A DNA stretch of 64,000 nucleotides, taken from NCBI RefSeq assembly GCF_000379025.1, contig NZ_KB900617.1, forward strand, positions 245,547 to 309,546. Reading direction: 5' to 3'. The notes beneath the pieces are model-generated. The model ran no database searches, was not told the origin of the DNA, and saw only the letters and a list, made by a program, of their open reading frames with translations. The position numbers and the translations under genes were made by a program. This DNA comes from Orenia marismortui DSM 5156. GTDB taxonomy: Bacteria > Bacillota > Halanaerobiia > Halobacteroidales > Halobacteroidaceae. Position 1 is the stretch's first letter; the number at the start of each line of letters is the position of its first letter. Below, piece by piece: positions 32,331 through 51,610 of the stretch.

Positions 32331-32528
32331 TTAAATTAAATCTTTCTTCTGACCTGAAAACCAATTTATAATAGTTTCAGAAACTACATCTGATCCATCT
32401 ATTTCCTTAACGCCATCCATTTTAATGCATTTGCCAACCTTTACAACATGATTATCCTTGACAACAACATCAGACCTATAACTTCCCTGATCACTAGTTA
32501 CATTAACATTCTTCATTACAAAACACAT
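32331..32528 (-). CDS. Small unrecognised protein upstream of glnA
   Basis: 65 residues from ATG 32528, which has GAGGTG 6 bases upstream; the frame extends to a GTG inside that site. It starts [10 protein letters not shown] and is mostly short beta-prone segments ([17 protein letters not shown]) with a basic end. Two Cys (residue 2 and in GKCI). It ends 14 bases before the glnA start and so is the first gene of the nitrogen-controlled glnA mRNA. The Met-Cys start recalls CooT-like metal proteins, but the rest does not align by eye. Function unknown. Confidence 0.6.
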
Positions 32529-32564
32529 TAAAATCACCTCGCTAATTTATTAAATTTGTTTTTG

Positions 32565-32621
32565 ATGTTATCTATATGTTAACTATATGTTAAGTATAAT
32601 CTTTTTGTGATAATATGTCAA
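32565..32621 (-). promoter_or_regulatory. glnA promoter with three 11-bp direct-repeat operators
   Basis: Minus strand TTGACA (32616-32621), 17-base spacer, TATACT (32593-32598). Three head-to-tail 11-base units follow at 32565-32575, 32576-32586 and 32587-32597 (plus-strand reading ATGTTATCTAT, ATGTTAACTAT, ATGTTAAGTAT). The first overlaps the -10 and the others cover the start site, as expected for repression. Confidence 0.8.
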
Positions 32622-32717: not shown

Positions 32718-32957
32718 TCATTGATCCTCTAAAACTTTTTTTATTCCTATCGCATTTAAACCCTTGTTTAATAATTCTTTAATTTCGACAAGTCTTTCAA
32801 CATCATTTTTAGAATATAACCTTTGATTCCCTTTGGTTCTAACCGGATTTATCAATTCTGCTTTTTCATAATAACGAATCTGTCTGGCTGTTAAGTCAGT
32901 CATATCTGCAACTACACCAATAGTATAAGCAGGAGTATCTGCGCCTACATCAAGCAT
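32718..32957 (-). CDS. DNA-binding-domain-only GlnR-like MerR-family protein
   Basis: 79 residues, full reading frame with good ribosome site (GAGGAGAGGG, ATG). The winged-helix MerR domain fills the protein: YTIGVVADMTDLTARQIRYY, then ELINPVRTKGNQRLYS and KGLNAIGIKKVLEDQ, the pattern of the GlnR/TnrA DNA-binding domain. The C-terminal half that GlnR (about 130 residues) uses to dimerise and contact glutamine synthetase is missing. It lies between nifV and the glnA operon. It may bind the 11-bp direct repeats nearby (see findings). Confidence 0.8.
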   Translation of the reverse strand: MLDVGADTPAYTIGVVADMTDLTARQIRYYEKAELINPVRTKGNQRLYSKNDVERLVEIKELLNKGLNAIGIKKVLEDQ

Positions 32958-48874: not shown

Positions 48875-51115
48875 TCAAATATCAAAACCGTCTATAGAAA
48901 GTTTTAACTTTTCTGCCAAGGAAATTAATTCTCGAGAGGATAATTTAAGCTCTTGAGACATAGCAGCAATATCATTAGAACCTTCTTTAACCTCTTGACT
49001 TTTTATAGCTAAAGTTTGAGCATCACCAGAAGATGATTGGATATTATCAGCTGCACCAACAATACAGTTCTCTATATCTTTAAAAACACTTCCCGCATTT
49101 TCAATAACACCTTTACCAGTTAGAGCCTTCTCTTCGACATCAGTTATAGCCTCTAAACTCTCCCTAGAAGTAATCTGAGTTTCATTTATCAACTTTCTAA
49201 TCTTTCCGGTCGCTTGGCTAGTATTATGGGATAAGACCCTAATTTCTTCTGCAACCACCGCAAAACCACGCCCTTTTTCACCAGCACGAGCAGCCTCTAT
49301 AGCCGCATTTAGAGCCAACAGGTTAGTTTGTGCAGCAATATCATTAATCAGCTCCACAATATCTTCTATCTGATTTGAGTTACCCACCAGTTGATCAATA
49401 GCCTCAACCCCAACTTTTACAGAATCATTTATCTCTTCCATCTTTAAAACAGCATCTTCTAGACAGTTACTACCAACTTCCGTCTTAGAAGATGCTTCTT
49501 GAGCAAAAGCACTGGCTTCTTGACTACCAGCAGAAATCTGATCAATACCAAAAATCATGTCATCGATATTAGATACAGCATTTTTAGCTATGAGATCACC
49601 CTTCTTAACAGTAGAAGATAACTTTGAGCTAGAAGAAGTTAATGCACTAATCATCTTAGACATATCAGCAATTAATGCTTTAACCTTCCTTGTTGTACCG
49701 TTAAAAACATTCAATAGCCTCGCTTCACTATCATTCAATCCATCTAAAGCCAATTGTATGCTAAAATCACCCTTAGCCATCTTATCCAATCCCAACAAGA
49801 CTTGTTCTATAACCTTCCCACTCAATGAACCAAAGTCAGGATAAGAACTAGATCCATGTTCAGAAATATCTAAACCTTTCATCTCCTCTTCAGCAGAAAC
49901 CCTCAATCCAATAAGCAAATCAGCCAACTTAAAAAGAATAAAGGCTGTCGGGAAAACCCAAAGAGCTACACCGATTACACCTTTCAACTGAAGCAACAAC
50001 AGATTTGTTCCTCCACCATATAAAAGTCCACCTTCTCTAGAAAACACACCCACCATCAAAGTTCCCAAGATACCACATACACCATGAACCGAAATAGCAC
50101 CAACTGGATCATCTATATGTAAACTTTCTATAACTTCCATAGCAAAAACCACAACTACTCCTGCTATAACTCCTATAGCCACAGCCCCAAAGTCATTAAC
50201 TGTCGCTGTCCCAGCTGTAATCCCTACCAAACCTGCCAAAGCCCCATTTAGGGTCATAGCAACATCAGCAGTTCCATATTTGAACCAACTGGTCACCAAA
50301 GCCAATACAGCTCCAGATGCAGCTGCTAAATTGGTTGTCATTGCTATAGAAGCAATATTTAAATCACTTCCAGATATGGTACTTCCAGCATTAAATCCAA
50401 ACCAACCAAACCATAAAATAAAAACACCCAAAGCAGCCATCAATAAATTGTGTCCTGCTATCTTATTAGCTGAACCGTCTTCATTATATTTTCCAATTCT
50501 AGGTCCTAAAACCATAGCTCCTGCCAAAGCAGCCCAACCACCTACAGAGTGCACAACAGTAGATCCAGCAAAATCAACTACATTACTCAACCAGCCACCA
50601 CCCCAAATCCAATATCCAACTACAGGATAAATAAAACCACTAATCACTACACTACATATCAGATATGCACTAAATTTGGTTCTACCTGCTATAGCACCAG
50701 ACACAATAGTTGCTGCCGTTCCAGCAAAAACAACCTGGAATAACCAAAAAGCAGATAATGGAATCTCCAGCCCCAAATGAGCAAAATCACCACCCAAAAA
50801 GAAACCATTAAAAGATATAAATTTATTACCTACACCAAACATGATACTAAATCCTAGACACCAATAAATTAATGACCCCACAGAAAAATCCATCAAATTC
50901 TTCATAATAATGTTCCCAGAATTTTTCGCTTGAGTAAAACCAGCTTCAACCATCGCAAAACCAGCTTGCATAAAAAAGACTAAGAAAGCAGACAATAATG
51001 TCCACATTGTATCAATAGCAACCACTTCTTTCCTATCGATGTTTTCTGCACCAAATACAGCACAGGTGTATAATAGAATTATTAAGATTATTAAAAAAAT
51101 TTCAATTTTTTTCAC
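48875..51115 (-). CDS. Ammonium transporter fused to a methyl-accepting chemotaxis signalling domain
   Basis: About 746 residues. Signal-like first helix, then a complete Amt domain to about residue 430 with the same pore motifs as the 28.7-kb amtB ([32 protein letters not shown]). A linker of about 60 residues ([20 protein letters not shown]) resembles a HAMP segment. Residues about 500-746 form an MCP cytoplasmic domain with the CheW/CheA tip [20 protein letters not shown] near 605. Predicted to sense ammonium through the transporter and signal to the flagellar kinase. GTG start. Own direct-repeat nitrogen promoter. Confidence 0.9.
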
Positions 51116-51137
51116 TGTAACCACCCCTTAATATAAA

Positions 51138-51199
51138 ATGTTATGTTAGGTTTTTGTTATGTTTGTGTTAATTATAAGCTAATCTTTCGATTATATCAA
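51138..51199 (-). promoter_or_regulatory. Amt-MCP promoter with three 11-bp direct-repeat operators
   Basis: Minus strand TTGATA (51194-51199), 17-base spacer, TATAAT (51171-51176). Three units at 51143-51153, 51154-51164 and 51165-51175 (plus-strand ATGTTAGGTTT, TTGTTATGTTT, GTGTTAATTAT) overlap the -10 and run downstream. An extra ATGTTATG sits out of phase at 51138. Confidence 0.8.
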
Positions 51200-51237: not shown

Positions 51238-51384
51238 CTAAAATAATTTAAAATTTGATTTGTGCCTATTATTTCTAATAGTCTTTTTAAAATAACGGCA
51301 GTGATCTGTTAAATAAACATGGCATCCTAATTTCTTACAATAAAACCTCTTATAAATAAAATGGATACATTGTTGGCAAGCCAC
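51238..51384 (-). CDS. 48-residue Cys-rich protein with nitrogen-type promoter
   Basis: GTG start at 51384 behind an excellent ribosome site (AGGAGG, 7-base spacing), stop TAG at 51238-51240. It starts MACQQCIHFIYKRFYCKKLG and has five Cys: 3, 6, 16, 21 and 29 (Cx2Cx9Cx4Cx7C), with several His, and a basic tail (KKTIRNNRHK). This suggests a small metal- or Fe-S-binding protein. It has its own direct-repeat nitrogen promoter at 51487-51539 and lies between the asnB terminator and the Amt-MCP promoter. I do not recognise the family. Confidence 0.7.
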   Translation of the reverse strand: MACQQCIHFIYKRFYCKKLGCHVYLTDHCRYFKKTIRNNRHKSNFKLF

Positions 51385-51486
51385 AATACCCCCTCCTTTT
51401 TTATCTGTTACCACTATATAAATACCCCTCTACTCTAATCAAATACTTTCAGACAAGTACAACTGATATCATTAGAATCAAGGTTT

Positions 51487-51539
51487 ACGTTAACTTGATG
51501 TTAAGTATAAGTATAACTCTAAGAATATATTTCTGTCAA
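51487..51539 (-). promoter_or_regulatory. Promoter of the Cys-rich ORF with two direct-repeat operators
   Basis: Minus strand TTGACA (51534-51539), 18-base spacer, TATACT (51510-51515). Two units, ACGTTAACTTG (51487-51497) and ATGTTAAGTAT (51498-51508) on the plus-strand reading, lie just downstream of the -10. It follows the asnB terminator, so it must serve the small ORF and perhaps Amt-MCP. Confidence 0.75.
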
Positions 51540-51573: not shown

Positions 51574-51610
51574 TAAAAGATTCAGTGTGATTTTCACACT
51601 GAATCTTTTA
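51574..51610 (-). terminator. Terminator of asnB
   Basis: 17-base perfect arms (TAAAAGATTCAGTGTGA and complement) with a 3-base loop, T-rich after the stem, about 20 bases after the asnB stop codon. Confidence 0.87.

Follow-up and report, generated by a model that had tools for sequence, protein, structure and literature searches.

A small four-cysteine protein gene behind a nitrogen-type promoter in Orenia marismortui

Between asnB and amt-MCP, a stretch of 64,000 nucleotides from Orenia marismortui DSM 5156 (the whole DNA analysed here, called the window) carries a cysteine-rich frame of only 48 codons, which raises the question of whether so short a frame is a gene and what the cell would use it for. 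Proteins of this size are commonly overlooked, and only a few that respond to nitrogen have been characterised. An earlier note, made from the letters alone, had proposed a real gene under a dedicated nitrogen-responsive promoter, serving metal delivery to, or regulation of, nitrogenase or ammonium transport.

On the minus strand the coding sequence runs from a GTG at 51384 to a TAG at 51240–51238 (Table 1), with AAAGGAGGGGG and then TATT preceding the start. Its product, MACQQCIHFIYKRFYCKKLGCHVYLTDHCRYFKKTIRNNRHKSNFKLF, of which LGCHVYLTDHCR is an example peptide, has the cysteine spacing Cx2Cx9Cx4Cx7C. A mechanical reading of the open reading frame (ORF) gives 58 amino acids from a start ten codons earlier (51414); no homologue carries this N-terminal extension, so the GTG start given in the earlier note is right, and the frame, the spacing and the strong ribosome site described there are all confirmed in the sequence. 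We call this gene copy B, to distinguish it from a second type of copy, copy A, described below.

Table 1. Features in and around the copy B locus (window positions)
Feature	Position	Strand	Basis or remark
48-aa four-cysteine protein CDS (copy B)	51238..51384	-	sequence, homologues, codon test
Ribosome-binding site AAAGGAGGGGG	51389..51399	-	read in sequence; strong Shine-Dalgarno (SD) site also at most homologues
Sigma-70 type promoter TTGACA-N18-TATACT, 11/12 matches	51510..51539	-	aligned with copy B promoters of two other Orenia
Direct-repeat operator TTAACAT-N4-TTAACGT	51487..51504 (read 51504-51487)	-	adjoins second, tandem TATACT (51509-51504)
16-bp perfect hairpin with T-rich tail, presumed asnB terminator	51575..51609	-	read from sequence; between asnB and copy B
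Amt-MCP promoter TTGATA-N17-TATAAT carrying three 11-bp repeats of the TAACA type	51141..51199	-	starts ~40 bp after copy B stop
Amt-MCP fusion gene, downstream of copy B	48875..51124	-	Pfam PF00909 + PF00015

A search among 61 related genomes placed homologues in six of the eight Halobacteroidaceae genomes examined (three Orenia, Halanaerobacter, Halonatronum and one further genus). E values ranged from 1e-9 to 3e-14 for the second copy in the own genome (8e-11), the two further Orenia and the three other genera, so the conserved frame in close relatives on which the earlier note had made its case depend is present. Fifteen alignment columns are invariant (C3, C6, F9, F14, Y15, C16, L19, V23, Y24, L25, T26, D27, C29, Y31 and F32), including a VYLTD motif and the four cysteines C3, C6, C16 and C29. 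The proposed signature of five cysteines with several histidines is present in the window protein, but only in part conserved: C21 is replaced by T or Y in some homologues, and most of the histidines vary. Comparison of synonymous and nonsynonymous change, which the earlier note had suggested, gave pN/pS values of 0.06–0.41 across all pairs over the core codons, as expected under purifying selection; the copy B orthologues of the other two Orenia genomes (G001 and G002) differ by 11.5 synonymous and 3.5 nonsynonymous changes. Leaders between promoter and start codon have diverged among the copy B genes, unlike the coding part. We regard copy B as a real protein gene with near certainty.

Two family genomes keep the syntenic neighbourhood and have no such ORF there. 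Searches of 59 class-level and 398 phylum-level genomes, of genome contigs, viral contigs, phages and plasmids turned up no believable further homologue, which indicates a lineage-restricted family, confined to Halobacteroidaceae as far as it was searched. Weak class-level matches were rejected: those inspected lacked the cysteine pattern, and several overlapped a long ORF (hisH, for example) in another reading frame.

Copy A occurs in all six homologue-bearing genomes, beside a divergent ydjM and usually upstream of a gene for an FlgT_C-domain protein, and has no nitrogen operator. Copy B is present only in the three Orenia genomes, each of which has two copies, and bears the operator in all three; within the family, nifH is likewise found only in these genomes. 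In G001 and G002, copy B lies between fabI and an opposite-strand ydcF-like gene, near neither nif nor amt, so the expected link to a nif or amt neighbourhood fails in both. The copy B proteins group together in a tree at a weak 55% bootstrap only, and their shared KKTIRNN/KRTIQKN tail and their promoters agree with this grouping. Directly after the copy B stop, G001 and G002 have what may be another mini-ORF, 22 codons long and preceded by an SD site (LNLSDKINGYDKFKILISAILF / LTLTAKINDYCKSTNLISIILS; L024, L026); it is absent from the window. A AGGAAATTATTTCAT-like element is conserved between ydjM and copy A (L022, L023, L025, L027, L029), and has no match within the window.

The operator behind the copy B promoter ranks among the six best dimers of its kind in the window, the other top ones lying at glnA, nifH, asnB and nifV. 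It stands 6 bp farther from the -35 box, displaced by the tandem TATACT, and has no upstream opposite-strand repeat array. In G001 and G002 the middle repeat unit is degenerate, and an opposite-strand array lies 15–16 nt above the -35 box, compared with 16 nt at glnA of the window and 26 nt at nifH. The hairpin on the asnB side escaped our strict terminator scan because its T run falls inside the stem. As the scan found no terminator between copy B and amt-MCP, the copy B transcript may read through into that gene; the suggestion that copy B is set apart by the asnB terminator and the Amt-MCP promoter is therefore sound toward asnB, and toward amt-MCP as regards the promoter, but not as regards a terminator. 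Full-length Amt-MCP fusions, candidate ammonium chemoreceptors judging by their domains, occur also in G001, G002, G004 and G006, and in G001 and G002 the gene remains next to nifH. The literature searched contained no paper about Orenia nif genes, nor one linking Amt to chemotaxis in Halanaerobiales.

Across the family, TTGAYA-N17-TATAAT fused to 11-bp repeats of the form TTAACAY-N4-TTAACAT is found at glnA, a glnR-like gene, nifH, nifV and amt-MCP, and this promoter pattern had 50 matches in five genomes against 6 for a reversed control. Operators of this kind lie on the minus strand of the window at 32593 (glnA), 34354 (nifV), 48636 (nifH), 51171 (amt-MCP) and 53528 (asnB), fused to or near the -10 box and often paired with an opposite-strand array above the -35 box; at other promoters such arrays lie 5, 26 or 36–37 nt above it, about one helical turn apart, several of them not significant alone. 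We trained a matrix on 13 promoters, taken from glnA, glnR, nifH, nifV and amt-MCP and including no copy B; it scored 19.5, 22.7 and 22.3 bits upstream of copy B in the three species and -3 to -11 upstream of copy A (n=6), and among 524,028 background positions the matches listed above the copy B sites were all at nitrogen-type genes. This and the dimer ranking uphold the claim that copy B has the same direct repeats as nifH and glnA. The GlnR/TnrA box TGTNAN7TNACA had no exact match at any of eight promoters and one near-match, at asnB. The 11-bp direct repeats may thus represent a nitrogen operator of Halobacteroidaceae that has not been described before.

Two further observations concern these promoter regions: nifH of G002 has two tandem nitrogen-type promoters upstream (L067 4858 and 4597, minus strand), and the glnA leader region of the window contains a 68-aa ORF (32331–32537) without a Pfam match, with an apparent counterpart before Halonatronum glnA (L068 1925–2131).

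Copy B very likely shares a regulon with glnA and nifH. Its own promoter stands, and a promoter of this type accompanies the gene in all three species, also where the locus differs; the term nitrogen-responsive follows from the identity of the co-regulated genes, and in that sense nitrogen control is well supported, by inference. The product is probably made when nitrogen is scarce. The conservation of the gene, and of its promoter in three species, bears out the view that so small an ORF is a real gene.

Two alternatives would change what kind of element or response this is. If the locus were a leader or small RNA of amt-MCP with an accidental ORF, the failure to detect a terminator before amt-MCP would fit, but amino acids have been kept despite many synonymous changes in four genera, at different loci and behind SD sites, the leader fold is not unusual (z = -0.3), and Rfam gave no match; the conservation pattern refutes an RNA-only reading, to which we give almost no credence. 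The repeats, for their part, might be sites for a PhoB/PhoP-type response regulator, in which case the gene would respond to phosphate and not to nitrogen. Regulators of the OmpR/PhoB type typically use direct repeats with an 11-bp period, and the identical heptamer with the same period recurs near phoU, pstS and phoPR of the own genome (L102 2598, 7073, 10117, 12955; G000:C1:340-351 kb). Because of these sites the repeat alone is no proof of nitrogen control, a regulator of the OmpR/PhoB type is possible, and operators for nitrogen may be difficult to distinguish from those for phosphate. The nitrogen matrix nevertheless gives the nearby pho-region sites distinctly lower scores (13.9 bits at phoU), and it is at glnA, glnR, nifH, nifV and amt-MCP that the repeats are fused to the -10 box in several genera, which makes a phosphate response very unlikely.

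What the protein does must be read mainly from its cysteines. Searches gave no Pfam or NCBIfam family match at or close to the curated cut-offs, a single PHROG match at E 1.3, no PDB sequence matching the family profile even with E values up to 10 allowed, and chance-level matches only when a single member was searched against the PDB. Two AlphaFold runs produced models of low confidence (pLDDT 57 and 62), with which Foldseek found no significant match. The four invariant cysteines suggest one metal site, and metal binding is likely. In the sequence of events that we propose, copy A would be the ancestral, family-wide copy beside ydjM, and a second copy would have arisen or been acquired in Orenia, the nifH-bearing genus, with a nitrogen-type promoter. 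Transcription from this sigma-70 promoter, with TTAACA-type repeats overlapping or following the -10 box, would presumably be released under nitrogen limitation. The product would most likely fold around a single metal ion, Zn2+ or Fe, or around an Fe-S cluster, at C3, C6, C16 and C29 and serve nitrogen-limited cells as an accessory factor that binds another protein, with glutamine synthetase (GS), PII or nitrogenase-associated proteins as candidate partners.

More specific roles can be set against this proposal. A nitrogenase factor, for iron or zinc delivery, Fe-S handling or nitrogenase protection, would explain why copy B occurs only in the nifH genus: the two coincide in the three Orenia genomes and in no other genome of the family, and the copy B promoters of G001 and G002 have a nifH-like two-array architecture. 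Three genomes of one genus nevertheless amount to a single evolutionary event, glnA and amt-MCP have the same promoter in genera without nifH, copy A occurs without nif and has identical invariant residues, and copy B lies away from nif in G001 and G002; we consider such a factor unlikely, and equally doubt that nitrogenase is the target. A regulator that would bind to Amt-MCP or to PII following a shift in nitrogen supply, by analogy to sP36 (PMC10714827), would suit the window, in which copy B is directly upstream of amt-MCP under common regulation. This role seems quite improbable, however, given that copy B sits at the fabI/ydcF locus in G001 and G002 while amt-MCP is still beside nifH, and that Halonatronum and G006 have amt-MCP without copy B. 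A small Fe-S protein of the HiPIP-like kind, serving electron transfer or as an accessory subunit as in glycyl radical enzymes, agrees in size and in CxxC-x9-C-x12-C spacing with subunits already described (PMC12358834), and the small subunit of one such enzyme (PDB 2y8n chain B) is in the Foldseek list at a non-significant E = 7. Model confidence is too low to build on this, the family profile had no PDB match, and no glycyl radical enzyme was recognised beside any copy, so that we rate this role as rather unlikely.

The metal delivery or regulation once proposed for nitrogenase or ammonium transport has thus lost ground: the family occurs in genera without nifH, copy B is unlinked to nif and amt outside this genome, and neither fold nor family evidence points that way. 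A role dedicated to nitrogenase or to Amt is conceivable, though we do not favour it. On balance we prefer to see copy B, judging from its sequence and promoter, as the Orenia member of a Halobacteroidaceae family that has come under a nitrogen-type promoter and encodes an accessory protein that binds a single metal, Zn or Fe, and serves cells short of nitrogen. More speculatively, and with little confidence, copy B might be the first of a group of undescribed nitrogen-induced, metal-dependent mini-regulators in anaerobic halophiles, drawn from a general metal-binding protein by a nitrogen promoter at the onset of diazotrophy and tuning nitrogenase or ammonium uptake by metal or redox state.

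In three species and at two genomic locations, the mini-protein gene comes with the nitrogen-type promoter, alongside a sister copy that is unregulated. This provides a clean natural contrast for asking when, and for what, the cell needs the protein. The common promoter also suggests that Halobacteroidaceae have a nitrogen operator unlike the Bacillus GlnR/TnrA palindrome. As in the GlnR/TnrA regulon of Bacilli, exemplified by Paenibacillus polymyxa nif (PMC6191146), a gene for a MerR-type GlnR-like protein (79 aa) stands beside glnA (window 32718–32957), and nif and gln genes have two operators, one above the -35 box and one located at the start site or below it; here, however, these are 11-bp direct repeats in place of a palindrome, and the TGTNAN7TNACA box is missing. 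The one-domain zinc-finger micro-proteins of Haloferax volcanii, with two C(P)XCG motifs (PMC11241148, PMC10716476), are similarly very small and have four metal-type cysteines, but copy B, which matches no family, has one CxxC (CQQC) and two single cysteines and lacks a C(P)XCG motif. The HiPIP-like small subunits of the glycyl radical enzymes BSS, HPAD and MASS (PMC12358834) are also small, with four cysteines including one CxxC; copy B differs in having no significant sequence or fold match to them and no recognised partner enzyme gene nearby. Methanosarcina mazei sP36 binds AmtB1 and GlnK1 (PMC10714827). Although bacterial and away from the amt locus in its relatives, copy B likewise encodes fewer than 70 amino acids, is probably tied to nitrogen status and, in the window, adjoins an ammonium transporter gene.
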